Shown here piece by piece: positions 2,023-60,471 of a stretch of DNA of 64,000 bases. The notes beneath the pieces are model-generated. The model was not told where the DNA came from and searched no databases. It saw only the letters and a program-made list of their open reading frames with translations. Each line of letters begins with the position of its first letter. The stretch's first letter is position 1. The DNA comes from Rhizomicrobium sp. Lineage in GTDB: Bacteria; Pseudomonadota; Alphaproteobacteria; Micropepsales; Micropepsaceae. The stretch covers positions 1,240,001 to 1,304,000 of the forward strand of contig JBBCHM010000001.1 of the NCBI GenBank assembly GCA_037200045.1. The letters run 5' to 3'. A program made the translations under genes and the position numbers.

Positions 2023-2150
2023 TGTCATGGCCCGCGAATGCGGGCCACCCAGCTGACATCGGCGCGCTCTCGCGTTTTCAGGGCTCTCTCCCACAATGGC
2101 CTATCCAAACATTGGATCACCTGAATGGCCCGCATTTGCGGACCATGACA
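2023..2150. repeat. Palindromic intergenic element, copy A (partly decayed)
   Basis: Begins TGTCATGGCCCGCGAATGCG and ends in the inverted form TGGCCCGCATTTGCGGACCATGACA. Two local hairpins face each other. The right-hand stem carries mismatches, so this copy is older. It lies in the rpoC-ogt gap. Confidence 0.8.
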
Positions 2151-2847: not shown

Positions 2848-2978
2848 TGTCATGGCCCGCGAATGCGGGCCACCCAGTTGACTTCTGCACTCTGCGACTC
2901 GCTTAAGGGCAGCTGTCGCGAGAACTCGTGATCGACGCCGGGATCACCTGGGTGGCCCGCATTCGCGGGCCATGACAC
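2848..2978. repeat. Palindromic intergenic element, copy B
   Basis: Starts TGTCATGGCCCGCGAATGCG and ends CCCGCATTCGCGGGCCATGACAC. Both halves have the GGCCCGC/GCGGGCC stem. It sits between the convergent stops of ogt and the Sel1 gene. Confidence 0.88.
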
Positions 2979-29533: not shown

Positions 29534-29950
29534 ATGCGCCATCGCAACCAAGGCCGCAAGCTGAACATCACCTCGTCGCATCGCACCGCGATGTTCGCGA
29601 ACATGATGGCGGCCCTCATCAAGCACGAGCAGATCAAGACGACGCTGCCCAAGGCCAAGACCATCCGTCCGGTGATGGAGAAGCTCGTCACCCTGTCGCG
29701 CCGCAACAACCTGCACGCGCGCCGCCAGGCGCTCGCGCAGATCCGCGACGAGGACCAGGTGCGCAAGCTGTTCGAGGTGATCGGCCCGCGCTACGCCTCC
29801 CGTCCGGGCGGCTACACCCGCGTGCTCAAGGCCGGCTTCCGCTTCGGCGACAACGCGCCGATGGCCTTCATCGAGTTCGTCGACCGCGACGAGGACGCCA
29901 AGGGCAAGGATTCCGGCCCGGTGGAAGTCGCCGGCGACGACGAGGAGTAG
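29534..29950 (+). CDS. rplQ: 50S ribosomal protein L17
   Basis: A 138-aa protein near the tunnel exit. It has [24 protein letters not shown], the [20 protein letters not shown] core and [27 protein letters not shown]. It ends the ribosomal cluster and is followed by a palindromic element. Confidence 0.98.
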
Positions 29951-29968: not shown

Positions 29969-30132
29969 GGTGTCCTGAATCAGAAATTCGCTGAATTCAA
30001 AATTAAAATGTCATGGCCCGCGAATGCGGGCCATCCAGGTGAAATCTGTCGCGGCGGTGCAGGTTTCACCTGGGTCCGCCGCATTCGCGGCGGATGACAC
30101 CGAGTGTTGCGAACTTCTGACTCGGGACACTA
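29969..30132. repeat. Palindromic intergenic element, copy C (near full length, with terminal inverted repeats)
   Basis: Outer ends read GGTGTCCTGAATCAGAA and TTCTGACTCGGGACACTA, forming imperfect terminal inverted repeats. The core runs from TGTCATGGCCCGCGAATGCG (30009) to CGGCGGATGACAC (30100). The left stem is GGCCCGC/GCGGGCC and the right stem is CCGCCGC/GCGGCGG. It fills the space between the convergent genes rplQ and the gene at 30138. Confidence 0.85.
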
Positions 30133-30137
30133 GAGCC

Positions 30138-31454
30138 CTACGACTCTGAAACCGCCTGTTCGGCGTGAACCGTCCGCGCCACGGTCCGCACCAGCGAATC
30201 CGCCGCCAGCCGCATCATCCGCCGCGGCACCCGCATCGGCGCGGCGACCGCGGGGCCGTGCAGCAACTGGTAGTCCGACGCGAGCGCGATCGCCAGGGTC
30301 TGCGGATCGGACACGTTCAGGATCAGCGGCCCCAGCCTTGTCGCCTGTCCCGCGCGCCCGACGCGGCGGATGCGCGTGCGCGTCAGGTCCTCGCCGCCGG
30401 TCTCCTTGCTGGGATCGAAGGCGAAGGCGGTGAAGCCGTTGCCGTCATAGGCGCTGAAATTGCGGCAGCCGCCCGAGACGCCGGCGATGACGTGCCCGAA
30501 GGGCCGCATGATCATGGCGAGGTCCGTCATGCGCGACTGGGTCACGCCGACCGGCAAATCGGTGAGCACGAACATGATATAGGGCCGGTAGATCGCCGGC
30601 AGGCCGCGGCAGGTGCGGCCGAATTCCGCCCGTCCGTTGGGCGTGCACACCGTCTCGAACGAGATCGGAACGCCGAGCAGGAAACGGTCGCCGGATTCCA
30701 GGCTGCGGCTGAGCTGGCCGACGCCGGAGCGCAGGCACGACAGCTCGATCGTGGTGCGCTCGCCCTGCGACAGGTCGGCGACGTTGAGTTCCTCGCCCGG
30801 CGCATCGCGGCTCTCGATCGATTGCGGCGTGCACAGATAGGTCGAGATGACCTCGTTCTTGGCGTCCCAGACCGGCTCGAACTGATGGACGATCTCCAGG
30901 CCCGAGCGGCGCTTGCTCGGCCGCTTGGCGTGCCGCCGCCGGTCGGCGCGGCCCGAAAGGCCTTGCCCCGCCTGGGAGGGATCGTCGGCGTCGAAGATCT
31001 GGCCGCGCTGCGCCAGGAGGCTCAGTTGTTCGGGCCAGATGCGGTGGCTCTTCATCCGGTACGGGCTGTCGAAGATCGCTTCCTCGATATGGATGCGGTC
31101 CAGGTCGCAGCGCCCGTTGAGCGTCATTTCGAGTTCCGCCCCGATGCGCAGCGTGCTGATCGCCCCGCCGTCGTTCTGCGTCAGCGGCGTGACGATGACA
31201 TAGCGCGTGTCGCTCACCCGCTCGTAGGAGCATTCCGGCGTCAGCCGGGCGCGCAGGATCGATTCCAGCCGGGCGCGGATGGAGGCCGCGATCTCTTCCC
31301 ACAGCGGCCCCGACGACGAGCGGATGATGCACAGATCGAAGATGTGCACGCAGCGCCGCGCGAACAGCTCCGGCGCTATTGCCCTTTTGACGGTGGTCTC
31401 TATCTCTCGCTGCACAGCACTCGTACCGAAGGATGCCGATGACGCCCGTGTCAT
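30138..31454 (-). CDS. Degenerate GGDEF-EAL-like protein (tentative)
   Basis: A 438-aa cytoplasmic protein not confidently recognised. The N-terminal third resembles a decayed GGDEF domain: CVHIFDLCIIRSS, a helix, then ERVSDTRYVIV where the active-site loop would be. The C-terminal half resembles an EAL domain: IVHQFEPVWDAKNEVISTYLC in place of the EAL motif strand, LLGVPISFETV, MFVLTDLPVG, and a last SDYQLLHGPAVA like QGYxxGxP. A basic linker (RRRHAKRPSKRRSG) separates them. If correct, neither c-di-GMP synthesis nor hydrolysis is possible. ATG 31454 lacks a close Shine-Dalgarno. It is divergent from the Do-type protease. Confidence 0.6.
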   Translation of the reverse strand: MTRASSASFGTSAVQREIETTVKRAIAPELFARRCVHIFDLCIIRSSSGPLWEEIAASIRARLESILRARLTPECSYERVSDTRYVIVTPLTQNDGGAISTLRIGAELEMTLNGRCDLDRIHIEEAIFDSPYRMKSHRIWPEQLSLLAQRGQIFDADDPSQAGQGLSGRADRRRHAKRPSKRRSGLEIVHQFEPVWDAKNEVISTYLCTPQSIESRDAPGEELNVADLSQGERTTIELSCLRSGVGQLSRSLESGDRFLLGVPISFETVCTPNGRAEFGRTCRGLPAIYRPYIMFVLTDLPVGVTQSRMTDLAMIMRPFGHVIAGVSGGCRNFSAYDGNGFTAFAFDPSKETGGEDLTRTRIRRVGRAGQATRLGPLILNVSDPQTLAIALASDYQLLHGPAVAAPMRVPRRMMRLAADSLVRTVARTVHAEQAVSES

Positions 31455-31576
31455 GGGGGGAGATTGAAATCTCCGCCTTAATTTTGGTTTAGTTGAGCCC
31501 GAGGTTCCCCCGTCAACTCCGCCAATCGGTAAACATGCGTTCACCGCATTGCTTAAAACTTGGAGAATTCCCCCCG

Positions 31577-35060: not shown

Positions 35061-35184
35061 GTGTCATGGCCCGCGAATGCGGGCCACCCAGGTGACATCC
35101 GCGCCGACCGCGCAGGCTTCATCTGGGTCCGCCGCATTCGCGGCGGATGACACCGAGTGTTGGAATTTCCGACTCGGGACACTA
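35061..35184. repeat. Palindromic intergenic element, copy D
   Basis: Core from GTGTCATGGCCCGCGAATGC to GGCGGATGACACC, with the right terminal repeat TTCCGACTCGGGACACTA. The left outer end is decayed. It carries the GGCCCGC left stem and the CCGCCGC right stem, and lies between the convergent rarA and crcB. Confidence 0.85.
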
Positions 35185-35646: not shown

Positions 35647-35706
35647 GCGGCACGGAAACCGCCTTGCGGAGGGCGTCGGGAAGACGGAGTCCTGCCGCGG
35701 TGATTG

Positions 35707-35775
35707 CGGTAGGAGTCATCAGCCATCTGGCTTTTCGGGCCGCCTGGCGGTTAAAGGGGGAACCCCATCCCCTGT
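35707..35775 (-). ncRNA. Fluoride riboswitch (crcB motif)
   Basis: On the minus strand the RNA reads GGGGATGGGGTTCCCCC, then AACCGCC, then an AGGCGG/GCC helix, then GGCTGATGACTCCTACC. These are the conserved blocks of the crcB-motif fluoride aptamer, in order and spacing. It lies about 80 nt upstream of crcB, its usual target. The aptamer is known to bind fluoride with magnesium and turn expression on. Confidence 0.92.
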
Positions 35776-35829
35776 CAGGAAACGCTAAGTGACTCCGCCC
35801 GCCCCGTCAACAATGCCAGGCTCTCGCGC

Positions 35830-39147: not shown

Positions 39148-39311
39148 TAGTGTCCCGAGTCAGAAGTTCGCTCCACCAGGTGTCATCCGCCGCGAATGCG
39201 GCGGACCCAGGTGAAACCTGCGCGGTCGGAACAGATATCACCTGGATGGCCCGTAGTCGCGGGCCATGACACCTTTGTTTTGAATCCAGCGGACTTTTGG
39301 TTCGGGACACT
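39148..39311. repeat. Palindromic intergenic element, copy E (full length, inverted orientation)
   Basis: Outer ends TAGTGTCCCGAGTCAGAA and GGTTCGGGACACT form terminal inverted repeats. Core stems are CCGCCGC/GCGGCGG (left) and a slightly decayed GGCCCG/CGGGCC (right). Compared with copy C it is in reverse orientation. It takes up most of the 317-bp gap between pccB and the gene at 39444. Confidence 0.87.
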
Positions 39312-47197: not shown

Positions 47198-47288
47198 TGT
47201 CATCCGCCGCGAATGCGGCGGACCCAGGTGAAACAGCACGGCCGGCGCAATCATCAACTGGGTGCCCCGCATTCGCGGGGCATGACAT
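47198..47288. repeat. Palindromic intergenic element, copy F
   Basis: Core only: TGTCATCCGCCGCGAATGCG to CGCATTCGCGGGGCATGAC. The left stem is CCGCCGC/GCGGCGG and the right stem is GCCCCGC/GCGGGGC, a third stem sequence in the family. It lies between the convergent pccA and the TonB receptor gene. Confidence 0.87.
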
Positions 47289-50209: not shown

Positions 50210-50254
50210 GACGAATCCCCCTTGCAGATGGCTTGCGATCCGGTCCTGTGAACC

Positions 50255-50304
50255 CAGTTCGCTGAACGAATTCAAAATACAAGGTGTCATGGCCCGAGAC
50301 TGCG
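50255..50304. repeat. Palindromic intergenic element, copy J (left half only)
   Basis: CAGTTCGCTGAACGAATTCAAAATACAAGG followed by TGTCATGGCCCG: this matches the left outer part and first stem of copies C and I. The rest is lost. It supplies the stop codon of the RES toxin gene. Confidence 0.65.
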
Positions 50305-50931
50305 GCCGTCCGGATCGCCGCTGTCGACGACAAATTTGTTCCGATCGTTGTTCCAGCGGTACTCGACCGTGCTGCCCGTGCTCAAATGCTGCGGAAAGAC
50401 AATCAGATTGCGATGGTGGGAGAGCCTTGCCGAGACGGTGAGGAACCCCTCGAGTAGTCGTCCGTCGCGATGCAGGGCTTCGCCAAGCAGTTGGGTCGGC
50501 GCCGTTCCCACCGGCGCCGAAACCTGGGTGGCGGCAGAGCGTTGGCGGTAGCCGTGCCAATCGCCCGTCAATTCCTGCGCGCTCACGTCCAGATGAGCCT
50601 GCGCGGCGACATCGGACAAATCCACGATACGTTGCAGGTTCACATGGGCGGTGAGGACGATCCAGGTGCCTTTGGGCTTCGGCACCACGCCGCCAGGCTT
50701 GAGCGGCGAGCCAAACAGGATTTGCGCCTCGAACATCGCCACCATCGGATCGTCCGACAGATAGAGCGACGGAAACTGCGGGCTGGCGCTCAGCGGATCA
50801 AAGAAGCGCGACGGTACGACCCTCGTATGCGAGGTCGAAAGCGCCGTCGTAAGGAACTGCGAGTCGACCGCTCTATACCAGGGGCGGGTCTCGGCGGCGA
50901 CGCCAAGCAGAGAAACCGCCGCAAGGTTCAC
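50287..50931 (-). CDS. RES-domain toxin (NAD+-targeting)
   Basis: A 214-aa toxin of the RES-Xre type II system, whose studied members degrade NAD+ or ADP-ribosylate. Key features are TRPWYRAVDSQFLTTALST with the conserved Arg, SRFFDPLSASPQFPSLYLSDDPMVAMFEAQ with the Tyr and Glu of the RES site. GTG 50931 overlaps the antitoxin TGA (GTGA), so the two are coupled. The last residues (DPDGRSLGP) and the stop lie within a truncated repeat, so the tail may differ from its ancestor. Confidence 0.88.
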   Translation of the reverse strand: MNLAAVSLLGVAAETRPWYRAVDSQFLTTALSTSHTRVVPSRFFDPLSASPQFPSLYLSDDPMVAMFEAQILFGSPLKPGGVVPKPKGTWIVLTAHVNLQRIVDLSDVAAQAHLDVSAQELTGDWHGYRQRSAATQVSAPVGTAPTQLLGEALHRDGRLLEGFLTVSARLSHHRNLIVFPQHLSTGSTVEYRWNNDRNKFVVDSGDPDGRSLGP

Positions 50932-53537: not shown

Positions 53538-53619
53538 CGTCATCGCCCGCTTCATGCGGGCGATCCAATTTGGCCGCGCGAGAAATTGGATTGCCTGAAC
53601 AACAAGCCGGGCAATGACG
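53538..53619. repeat. Palindromic intergenic element, copy G (variant)
   Basis: CGTCATCGCCCGCTTCATGC to GCCGGGCAATGACG. It has the same layout as the other copies with a different stem, CGCCCGC/GCGGGCG, and inner arms CCAATTT/AAATTGG. It is more diverged than the others. It lies in the cysH-tRNA gap (53501-53748), where no gene is seen. Confidence 0.65.
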
Positions 53620-53748
53620 CCTTTTTTGCATGAGCAACCTCAAGCCGAAACATCGGGAAAACGAGCCGTCTCGGCCGCTGGAAAGATCGCCTTTTCAACC
53701 CGATCCGCCTCTGCTAAACCCCCGCGCCTACCTGTGAATCCCTGACGT

Positions 53749-56292: not shown

Positions 56293-57498
56293 TCAGCACG
56301 TCGCGTCCGGCACATCCTCGCCGGTCGGGCTCTGGATGATCATGCGGTAGCACAGCATCTCGCGCCGCGCGAAGGCCGCCGCCGCGCCCCACAGATAAAG
56401 CCGGAAGCGGCGGAAATTGTAGTCGCCGAAACGGCTCACCACCTGCTCGCGATTCTTGTCGAGGTTCTTCGCCCATTGCATGAGCGTCAGCATGTAGCTC
56501 TTTGAATCGTTGTAGATCTCGATCGCCTGCATCTGCGTCTTGGCGAGCTTGTCGAGCAGGTCGGGCAGCACCAGGAAGGAATGGTTGCCGCCGTAAATAT
56601 GGCGCACCATGAAGGAGTTCAGCTCGAACTTCTTGTTGGCGGCGCTGCCGTCCAGGAAGATGCGGCCTCCCGGCTTGACCAGCTTGGCGAATTTCTCGAA
56701 CACGCGCTGATAGTCGGGCAGGTGCTCGATCACCCCCATGATCACGATGGCGTCGTAGCGCGTGTCGGTCTGGTATTCGAGCAGGTCCGAGAAGATCAGC
56801 TCCCAGTCATAACCCAGCACCTTGGCGCGGCCGTTCAGGTAGTCGATCGATTCCTGGCTGATCGAGATGCCGGTGCACTTCACGCCGCGCGCGCTGGCAT
56901 ATTCGAACCACGCGCCCCAGCCCGGCCCGATCTCCAGGATGTGGTCGCCGGGCTTCAGCTTGAGCTGGCGGAAGGCGTATTCGAACTTGCGCGTCGTGGC
57001 GACGTCGAGCGTCTCCTCGTCCTTCTCGTAGACGCCCTGGGTGTAGCAGGGGGTCTTGGGATCCAGGAAGCTCAGGAAGAAGCCGGGATCGATGTCGTAA
57101 TGCGAATGGATCGCCTGCTTGTTGGTGCGCACCTGGCCGAACAAAAGCGGCTGGATGTGGCGCCAGGCCTGGGTCAGGGGATGGACGTCCTTCATCGAGG
57201 CCTGGAGCTCGAACGGCTTCATCATGTCGCCCTCGATCTCGAAATCGCCGGCGAGGTAGGAATCGGCGACCTTGCCCTCGTCCAGGCTCATGGCGGCGCG
57301 CAGCGCGCGCTTGTTCTTGAGGGTGACGAGGAAATTGGGCGTGCCCTGGCCGATCCGCCGCTTGGTGCCGTCGGGGAAGACGGCCTCGAACGGCGTCGCG
57401 AAGCAGGAATAGCGCGCCAGGAGACGGTCGAGCAGCGACGAGGTTTTGCCGCCGGCCTCGGGCAGCATATCGGTCTGGATGTTCACGGAATCGCTCAT
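56293..57498 (-). CDS. Cyclopropane-fatty-acyl-phospholipid synthase-family methyltransferase (copy 1)
   Basis: A 401-aa SAM-dependent enzyme modifying unsaturated acyl chains of membrane lipids. It has the substrate-domain signature [29 protein letters not shown] motif [40 protein letters not shown], and a C-terminal [29 protein letters not shown] 57498 gives the start shared with the upstream paralog. Both are transcribed in the same direction, with a palindromic element in between. It may be CfaS or a relative with altered specificity. Confidence 0.9.
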   Translation of the reverse strand: MSDSVNIQTDMLPEAGGKTSSLLDRLLARYSCFATPFEAVFPDGTKRRIGQGTPNFLVTLKNKRALRAAMSLDEGKVADSYLAGDFEIEGDMMKPFELQASMKDVHPLTQAWRHIQPLLFGQVRTNKQAIHSHYDIDPGFFLSFLDPKTPCYTQGVYEKDEETLDVATTRKFEYAFRQLKLKPGDHILEIGPGWGAWFEYASARGVKCTGISISQESIDYLNGRAKVLGYDWELIFSDLLEYQTDTRYDAIVIMGVIEHLPDYQRVFEKFAKLVKPGGRIFLDGSAANKKFELNSFMVRHIYGGNHSFLVLPDLLDKLAKTQMQAIEIYNDSKSYMLTLMQWAKNLDKNREQVVSRFGDYNFRRFRLYLWGAAAAFARREMLCYRMIIQSPTGEDVPDATC

Positions 57499-57624
57499 CG
57501 TGCCCTCCAACGGTGAGAGGCCGCAAACGGTTCCCGCGCACAGCCACGCGATACCGACGCGGCCCCAAGACATGGGAACACTAAGCGAAAACCGCGGCGA
57601 TTGCCATCTGGTCTTGCTGCTCGC

Positions 57625-57715
57625 TGTCATCCGCCGCGAATGCGGCGGACCCAGGTGAAACCCGCGCTGTCAGTGCGAGTTCACCTGGGTGGCCCGCAGT
57701 CGCGGGCCATGACAC
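57625..57715. repeat. Palindromic intergenic element, copy H
   Basis: TGTCATCCGCCGCGAATGCG to GCAGTCGCGGGCCATGACAC, between the two methyltransferase genes. The left stem is CCGCCGC/GCGGCGG and the right one is GGCCCGC/GCGGGCC (one mismatch). Confidence 0.85.
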
Positions 57716-57749: not shown

Positions 57750-58940
57750 CTAGCCCGCGTCCTCCGGCATCTGCAGGATCAGCCGGTAGCAGTCCAGGCT
57801 GCGGCTCAGGAATTCATAGGCCGCGCCCCACAGATAGAGCCGGAAGCGGCGGAAGTTGAACTCGCCGAACTTGCCCACCAGGAAATCCTTATGGGCGTCG
57901 AGGTTCTTCGCCCACTGGATGAAGGTGTAGCAATAGCTCATGCGGTCGTTGAACACTTCCTCGACCTGGAACGGCGTCTTGGCGACCTTGTTGAGCAGAT
58001 CGTCCAGCACCAGGAAGGAATGGTTGCCCGGATAGATGTACTTCACCATGAAGGACGACAGCTCGTACTTCTTGATGCAGGCGCTGCCGTCCAGGAACAC
58101 GCGCCCGCCCGGCTTGATCAGCGACTGGAATTTCTTCACCACGCGCAGGTAGTCGGGCAGGTGCTCGATCACGCCCATGATGACGATGGCATCGTATTTG
58201 ACGCCCGGATTGTAGTCGAACAAATCCGACTCGATCAGTTCCCAATCGTGCCCCAGCTTCTTGCCCTTCTCGGTCAGGAAGCGGATCGATTCCTTGGAGA
58301 TCGAGATGCCGGTGCATTTCACGCCGCGCGCGGCGGCATATTCGAACCACGCGCCCCAGCCCGGCCCGACCTCCAGGATATGGTCGCCGGGCTTCAGCTT
58401 CAGCTTCTGGAAGCAATAGTCGAACTTGCGCAGCGTCGCGACGTCCAGGCCCTCGTCGGGGCTTTCATAGACGCCTTGCGTGTAGCAGGGCGTCACCGGA
58501 TCGAGGAAGGCGAGGAAGAACGACGAGTCGATGTCGTAGTGGTGCGAGATCGCCTGCTTGTTGGTGTGCACCTGGCCGAAGAACAAGGGCTGGATGTAGC
58601 GCCAGGCCTCGGTCACGAGGTGGAAATCCTTCATCGAGCCGCGCAGCTCGAACGGCTTCATCATGTCGCCCTCGAGGTCGATGTCGGCGGCCAGATAGGC
58701 CTCGGCGATCTTGCCCTCGTCCAGGCTGGTGACGGCCTTCAGGCCCCGGTCGTTGTTGATGGTCATGGTGAAGGTGGGGGCGCCCTGGCCGAAGCGCTGG
58801 CGCGTCCCGTCCGGCATGACGACCTCGAAGGGGGTCGAAATATTCGCGTACTGCGCCGCGAAACGGCCCAGGAGCGTGGTTTTCGCGGGTTTCGCCTCGG
58901 GCGTCTTGGCGGTCGTCGGCAGGTTAAGCGTGTCCGTCAT
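57750..58940 (-). CDS. Cyclopropane-fatty-acyl-phospholipid synthase-family methyltransferase (copy 2)
   Basis: A 396-aa paralog of the gene at 56293, with the same order of motifs: [68 protein letters not shown], and [25 protein letters not shown]. It sits upstream of copy 1 and is divergent from isovaleryl-CoA dehydrogenase. The two copies differ at many positions, so the duplication is not recent. Function as in copy 1. Confidence 0.9.
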
Positions 58941-60312: not shown

Positions 60313-60344
60313 GAATCGGAAACCCGCCGAATTCAAAACAAAGG

Positions 60345-60471
60345 TGTCATGGCCCGCGAATGCGGGCCACCCAGTTGACGCTCACTCCGGCGGTGCAGGA
60401 TTCAACTGGGTCCGCCGCATTCGCGGCGGATGACACCGAATGTTGTTGCGAACGTCTGCCTCGGGACACTA
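60345..60471. repeat. Palindromic intergenic element, copy I
   Basis: Core TGTCATGGCCCGCGAATGCG to GCGGCGGATGACACC, with the right outer end CGTCTGCCTCGGGACACTA and left outer sequence from about 60315 (GAAACCCGCCGAATTCAAAACAAAGG) like copy C. Left stem GGCCCGC, right stem CCGCCGC. It lies between the convergent ivd and CBS-domain genes. Confidence 0.85.

Follow-up and report, generated by a model that had tools for sequence, protein, structure and literature searches.

Palindromic repeats of a Rhizomicrobium genome: probable IS630-type MITEs with a captured pair of CGTC-type REP hairpins

What are the palindromic repeats scattered between the genes of this Rhizomicrobium sp. genome, and does anything move them? 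In the window, the whole stretch of 64,000 nucleotides analysed here, the motif TGTCATGG occurs 11 times against 1.43 expected, and none of 100 shuffled sequences reaches 11. A first-pass annotation had assigned ten intergenic sites to a single family of MITEs with a shared core and, on the fuller copies, shared outer ends. The MITE reading holds for the copies bounded by terminal inverted repeats (TIRs), which are non-coding, 161 bp long and have ends in common with IS630, but it does not extend to all ten sites. The explanation that we favour, with a probability of roughly 0.8, is that the fuller copies are MITEs of the IS630/Tc1-mariner type with a captured pair of CGTC-type REP hairpins in their interior.

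Scanning 304 kb of the genome that contains the window (G000; 4.73 Mb in three contigs, 96% complete) for hairpin arms yielded 9 class 1 pairs, 9 class 2 pairs and 3 single arms. Class 1 pairs combine one GGC-stem and one CCG-stem arm and span 91 bp in the TIR-bearing copies, and class 2 pairs combine two GGC- or CGC-type arms and span 95-130 bp. The repeats of the window, named according to the favoured reading, are as follows.

2023..2150, no strand assigned: class 2 REP pair, two GGC-type arms with a long variable spacer; a related pair stands at the orthologous place in G028
2848..2977, no strand assigned: class 2 REP pair, two GGC-type arms with a long variable spacer; not seen in G028, where the flanks align poorly
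29970..30130, plus strand: full 161-bp REP-carrying IS630 MITE, flanked by TG (left) and TA (right)
29970..29991, plus strand: its left terminal repeat GTGTCCTGAATCAGAAATTCGC, IS630 left-end type, 1 mismatch to the end pattern
30009..30099, plus strand: its 91-bp REP heterodimer core, predicted cloverleaf; GGC arm at 30009-30038, spacer, CCG arm at 30070-30099
30109..30130, minus strand: its right terminal repeat GTGTCCCGAGTCAGAAGTTCGC, IS630 right-end type, 0 mismatches to the end pattern
35062..35182, plus strand: MITE copy, right end intact, left end lost; the orthologous place in G028 is also occupied
39150..39310, minus strand: full 161-bp REP-carrying IS630 MITE of opposite polarity, flanked by TA and TG as read on the plus strand
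47198..47287, minus strand: bare 90-bp REP heterodimer, no TIR trace; common to G028, arms identical, spacer diverged
50243..50314, plus strand: MITE left-end fragment with one arm, limits set by eye
53538..53632, no strand assigned: other CGTC-type palindrome outside this family, limits set by eye
57625..57714, minus strand: bare 90-bp REP heterodimer, no TIR trace; a different sequence at the G028 place
60345..60469, plus strand: MITE copy, right end intact, left-end remnant at about 60313-60344

Repeats are thus present at all the places first listed, but they are several different things rather than ten copies of one core. The core originally proposed, TGTCATGG...CCATGACA, does not describe the TIR copies, which are asymmetric and join a GGC-stem arm (TGTCATGG..) to a CCG-stem arm (..GGATGACA). 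The outer ends had been recognised in part: the left form AGTGTCCCGAGTCAGAA is unaltered in the copy at 39148, as is the right form TTCTGACTCGGGACACT in the copy at 29969, and the opposite ends of these two copies are variants (GTGTCCTGAATCAGAA; TTTTGGTTCGGGACACT). Among the four copies described as fuller, those at 29969 and 39148 deserve the name, the copy at 35061 has the right end only, and at 57625 there is no TIR trace (p 0.91), nor is there one at 47198 (p 0.58); the copy at 60345 is TIR-bearing as well. The sites at 2023 and 2848 (128 and 130 bp) had to be separated as a different kind of pair, 50255 is a truncated left end with one arm and not a core, and 53538 is another palindrome, GTCATCGCCCG..CGGGCGATCC. 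No known RNA family was found for the repeats, Rfam gathering scores being reached in the window only by a fluoride riboswitch and one tRNA. The riboswitch (RF01734, 56.9 bits) lies at 35703-35781 on the minus strand, the 35061 element being about 500 bases away. A cyclopropane-synthase-like (CMAS) gene (56293-57630, minus strand) and an adjacent ORF (57750-58940, minus strand) which repeats that gene, with 73-79% DNA identity in three stretches, stand on either side of the bare core at 57625.

The first-pass annotation had seen no matching transposase in the window and had proposed a search for one with the same terminal repeats; such a gene exists outside the window, in the same genome. Matches to the end GTGTCCCGARTCAGAA with at most 3 mismatches numbered 42 in G000 against 22 for a reversed-pattern control, so that single weak matches mean little. 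Two facing matches 1.2 kb apart, at positions 2464290-2465500 of contig C1, mark a complete 1,211-bp element of the IS630 type, CTA-GTGTCCTGAACCAGAAGTTCGC ... GCGAACTTGTGACTCAGGACAC-TAG. Its single gene encodes 376 aa with a DDE_3 match (E 4.6e-20), in which we take D192, D275 and E311 to be the DDE triad. This is the only full-length copy matched in G000. The nearest relative, G028, has a 100% identical transposase protein, and the DNA of the two elements aligns exactly from CTAG to CTAG with 6 mismatches (our own count), at a different chromosomal place. Among 37 genomes of the genus the transposase is near-identical in these two only; four others have distant matches of at most 52% identity. 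In a scan of named genomes, relatives of this IS were found in Bradyrhizobium and other bacteria. Of 80 named relatives of the transposase, both ends were recognised by our filter in 31 (49 were dropped); 30 of these are flanked by TA/TA and one by TG and TA. The closest of the 31 have the same pair of unlike ends, GAGTCACAAGTTCGC before the gene and GAACCAGAAGTTCGC after it, and close relatives have CTAG flanks. The 22-bp terminal repeats of the MITEs also stand on the transposase-coding element of G000, and the MITEs keep the difference between its two ends, GAACCAG on the left and GAGTCA on the right. As judged from sequence, a shared end of about 22 bp is compatible with mobilisation by this IS, and is no proof that the MITEs were moved by this particular element. 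The G000 copy of the IS (L061:1289-2503, C1:2464288-2465502) lies in a CTAG from which two convergent reading frames each take a TAG stop, and the insertion has left the two stops in place.

The end is unevenly distributed in the genus. With at most 3 mismatches to the 22-bp form, G000 has 24 matches and G028 has 4; the IS accounts for two per genome, and there is no control match in either. The other 35 genomes of the genus have 0-2 matches, except G030 with 8; eight of these 35 have one control match each, so that one or two matches are near chance. Besides the IS, the 24 matches of G000 mark 14 elements, and the REP core is present in every one of the 14, of which one is truncated. The end matches examined in G030 (L297, L298 and L299) belong to a different IS630-like MITE of about 75 bp without the REP core, in which 6 of 8 junctions read CTAG by eye. 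Arms of the core were matched in 30 of 61 genomes searched, all 30 in this genus. A search across the class covered 289 genomes and gave matches at E <= 1e-8 in 3, which again belong to the genus, but it is weak since only two candidates per genome were scored; likewise, 40 of 196 candidates were scored in the search for G000 copies, and the number found is a lower bound. One locus of contig C2 (L062, at 501098) nearly duplicates MITE copy L011 in truncated form, and has the unusual arm insertion of the latter as well. In L011 and L232 an extra palindrome in one hairpin loop makes the hairpin longer while the stem is kept.

If the elements are mobile, related genomes should differ in their positions, and the first-pass annotation had held that copies at the same place in all relatives, with no empty sites, would argue against mobility. 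A comparison of 304 kb of G000 against 280 kb of G028, whose aligned parts agree at about 91% of positions, and of some further sites showed that copies are polymorphic. Class 1 elements are absent from the G028 place at 29969, 39148 (no arms at the place corresponding to 39150-39310), 57625, 1171226, L006, L007 and L011, and are common to both genomes at 35061, 47198, 60345 and L017; conversely, L230 of G028 is absent from G000. Class 2 pairs are absent from G028 at 1034607, 1188303 and, with poor flanks, 2848, and common to both at 2023, 1178577, 1213250 and 1217591. One empty site, that of L007, is clean to the base, reading GTGCTAGCGTCG in G028 against GTGC-TA[element]TG-GCGTCG in G000, and indicates that the insertion target was CTAG. 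At L003, L004, L008 and L012 no alignment of the flanks across the insertion could be obtained. CTAG is also the target reported for IS630 in the title of a 1991 paper by Tenzen and Ohtsubo, cited in PMC2170065.

The flanks of the elements are less simple. Twelve copies have two ends (eleven in G000, and L230 in G028), leaving aside L232, which is the same insertion as L017, L233, whose ends are degraded, and the one-ended copies. No copy among the twelve has TA at both borders: in eleven a single flank is TA and the opposite one TG or CA, and in one the flanks are TG and CA. In contrast, the IS is flanked by TA/TA in 32 of 33 cases (31 relatives and the G000 and G028 copies; Fisher p 4.5e-10), and under independent decay the probability that at least 11 of 12 copies have exactly one changed flank is 0.003. 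The degraded G028 copy L233 is TA/TA by eye, which counts against a strict one-TA rule. The check for target-site duplications recommended at first pass therefore gives a mixed answer: the clean empty site shows CTAG, no two-ended copy is TA/TA, and the standard TA duplication is visible only through that one empty site. As our preferred guess, copies with TA/TA flanks would excise and those with a damaged flank would survive; mutation of CTAG to CTGG or CCAG and a different insertion chemistry were also considered as candidate explanations. That the kept TA is, as a general rule, part of a TAG stop codon was rejected, as it is contradicted by the short open frames at L004 (67 open codons), L005 (7), L011 (43) and L012 (37). 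The TAG-stop reading does hold at both borders of the IS, with 299 and 206 open codons in scans of about 900 bases each, and perhaps for L230 (254), L002 (181) and L001 (104). PMC2170065 states TA duplication for the IS630 family and gives it for 34 of 39 ISY100 products obtained in vitro; in 3 of the 39, one flank was TA and the opposite flank had the A alone.

The interior of the elements is of another nature. CGTC-type REPs are defined, in the sections of PMC3733652 consulted, by a CGTC or TGTC tag, an 8-9-bp stem starting with AT, a 4-5-base loop and a CCA tail, TGTC being given as a common variant of the tag; the arm found here, TGTC-ATGGCCCGC-GAAT-GCGGGCCAY-CCA, agrees with this definition. 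In most copies the outermost A-T pair of the arm is A-C, and the stem is then 8 bp. Variation in the arms is 4-10 times lower than in the transposon ends: across the 12 two-ended copies, mismatches to the majority base amount to 2.5% and 1.4% for the arms, as against 11.0% and 13.3% for the TIRs, 13.6% and 21.3% for the subterminal parts and 15.1% for the spacer. With TIR divergence of 11-13%, none of the 12 copies looks recent. The 37 class 1 cores that could be aligned (41 pairs minus the four of class 2; the arm pattern missed L011, L230 and L232) have a predicted cloverleaf fold, made up of a central stem, the hairpins of the two arms and a stem TGTCAT/ATGACA that closes the structure. In it, eight pairs show two-sided changes, in 37 cells against a shuffled mean of 21.5 (sd 3.7); none of 500 shuffles is as high and slid controls give 2-6, although counts of this sort can be raised by relatedness among the copies, and the structure itself comes from the same sequences. 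Two of the five covariation measures were weaker, 4 of 500 shuffles being as high for pairs changed on both sides and 37 of 500 for further pair types. Pairs 31-68 and 35-64 were added to the predicted structure by hand and are broken in 13 and 18 of the 37 rows.

Slowly changing arms might reflect selection or a copying process. Homogenisation by template switching in hairpins or by gene conversion, which is compatible with the reading of the elements as IS630-type MITEs, is a serious possibility to which we give somewhat less than even odds. It would account for the G028 core orthologous to 60345, in which the two arm types are exchanged, for a paired C-G/G-C swap at 1213250 (CGC/GCG for GGC/GCC), and for five orthologous sites of G000 and G028 in which arms are identical at 277 of 300 positions and spacers at 100 of 178 aligned positions (2023, 1217591 and L017/L232 are left out of this count). 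It would, however, be unusual for conversion tracts to cover about 30 bp and leave the spacer untouched, and the elements lie at the 3' ends of genes, as expected if they act on transcripts. The class 2 pair at 1217591 is near-identical in arms, spacer and flanks, so that the contrast is not seen there. This pair and its flanks (C1:1217540-1217770) are almost identical between G000 and G028, far above the average of about 91%.

Are the copies that consist of the core only decayed MITEs or something separate, as the first-pass annotation asked? Both appear to exist. TIR traces at p <= 0.01 (300 shuffles each) surround 22 of 31 class 1 cores examined in G000, 4 of 6 in G028 and none of 12 in G029, another member of the genus; the G000 figure is an upper one, since most of those cores had been retrieved with the full MITE as query, and copies whose arms are ruined may have escaped the search. 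No trace was seen around any of the four class 2 pairs examined. A single old MITE family comprising all class 1 copies, with each core-only copy a decayed member, is in our view quite unlikely. Such a history would fit the graded traces of G000, which run from intact to barely visible and indicate that some copies have indeed decayed. It fits poorly with the 12 cores of G029, bare despite intact arms and a length of 91-92 bp, which show that the 91-bp dimer exists without a shell, with the different length and arm type of class 2 pairs, and with a 22-bp end frequent only in G000, a related but different end being found in G030. The data do not support simple decay of all core-only copies; the dimer is also an independent REP-type repeat.

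Very unlikely, finally, is that the elements are REPINs moved by a RAYT, with incidental IS630-like ends: class 2 pairs, as inverted REP doublets with a variable spacer, do resemble REPINs as presented in the part of PMC3116915 used, and Y1_Tnp genes occur in 12 of 37 genomes of the genus, but there is no Y1_Tnp match in G000, G028 or G029, an arm-like motif is present at only 1 of 10 RAYT loci scanned, 6 of 9 such loci printed are flanked by GGGTCAGAGT-type repeats instead, and the TIRs match IS630, a different class of transposase. RAYT-driven movement was rejected as a candidate, PF01797 having 0 matches in the 96% complete G000 against 5 of 14 control genomes positive. The GGGTCAGAGT / ACTCTGACCC repeats near those six RAYT-like loci of the genus (L235 and L237-L241) resemble the GGGGWSAS ends of 'TIRYT' genes, as these are described in the excerpts of PMC3733652.

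The position of the elements suggests what an insertion can do. With genes called by a simple codon model and gaps above 60 bp considered, none of 21 elements in 304 kb lies between divergent genes, against 31 of 127 gaps that are divergent, and 5 of 9 class 1 elements lie in convergent gaps. The element at 29970-30130 stands between rplQ (29534-29950, plus strand, Ribosomal_L17), with RpoA domains just upstream, and a convergent ORF (30138-31544, minus strand). Ten rplQ loci of relatives were printed, of which four ran the other way and were not read (G001, G021, G006 and G002). All six readable ones (G028, G034, G030, G015, G025 and G016) have a G+C-rich hairpin followed by T's after rplQ; in G000 this terminator is missing and the MITE is there instead, a terminator scan from rplQ to its neighbour finding none. 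The RNA of this MITE has a predicted fold of -99.7 kcal/mol (z -11.9). We infer that the insert may end or protect the rplQ transcript, and it probably acts as a 3'-end structure there, which suggests how a MITE can replace the terminator of a ribosomal protein operon.

The reading of the fuller copies as IS630-type MITEs with a REP cargo leads to the following scenario. The transposase of a full-length IS630 element, the one found here or an earlier copy, would bind the 22-bp ends GTGTCCYGA..AGAAGTTCGC, cut the element out and paste it into CTAG with duplication of TA; such mobilisation in trans is what the sequence comparisons suggest. The REP dimer would be older than its shell, bare in the genus at large and captured between IS630 ends in the G000/G028 lineage, which is the simplest order and one deduced from few genomes. 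After insertion, usually at the 3' ends of genes, the shell would decay while the hairpin arms persist, so that many core-only copies would be dead MITEs and others REP dimers that never had a shell. A wider proposal, which we regard as unlikely, is that CGTC-type REPs in general spread by riding in unrelated cut-and-paste transposon shells. In that case a Tc1/mariner-type enzyme would move the composite, and decay of the shell with retention of the arms for their action at transcript ends would leave bare dimers; on this view, one capture after another by different IS shells would have left behind the REP dimers that are widespread in Alphaproteobacteria.

The shell of these elements is that of an ordinary IS630-type MITE, and it is the cargo that is unusual and informative: the combination, and not the kind of element, sets them apart. 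In the open-licence PMC literature, no report of CGTC REPs inside IS630 ends was found among the matches listed. The IS630-derived MITEs known as Correia elements and RUP are, as far as the part of PMC2817692 compared goes, similarly short, non-coding and intergenic, with TIRs of the IS630 type and TA at the insertion; in contrast to them, the interior here is a REP dimer that is also an independent repeat of the genus, and the 12 two-ended copies are flanked by TA/TG(CA) rather than TA/TA. REPINs (Bertels and Rainey 2011, PMC3116915, in part) share with our class 2 pairs the inverted REP doublet and the less conserved spacer, but no RAYT match was found in this genome and the arms carry TGTC, whereas Pseudomonas REPs are GTAG-tagged according to the sections of PMC3733652 compared. 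The CGTC REPs of Di Nocera et al. (2013, PMC3733652, same sections) are the closest match, with the TGTC tag, the stem starting with AT, the CCA tail, dimers including heterodimers, a location downstream of genes and no attached RAYT; they differ from the repeats described here in that some of our dimers lie inside IS630-type TIRs with a matching transposase gene. The same source describes REP dimers within longer palindromes in A. variabilis (GTAG-15) and H. neapolitanus (CGTC-1), its section 7 naming no transposase for them; by analogy, these may be similar composites. It gives CGTC REPs as having no dedicated transposase and leaves open, in the portion cited, whether other transposases move them. 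REP hairpins are common in bacteria, and the elements described here are a concrete case bearing on how the CGTC type moves: the ends are defined, the IS630 transposase gene is intact and there is an empty site, so that the question becomes testable by transposition in the laboratory.
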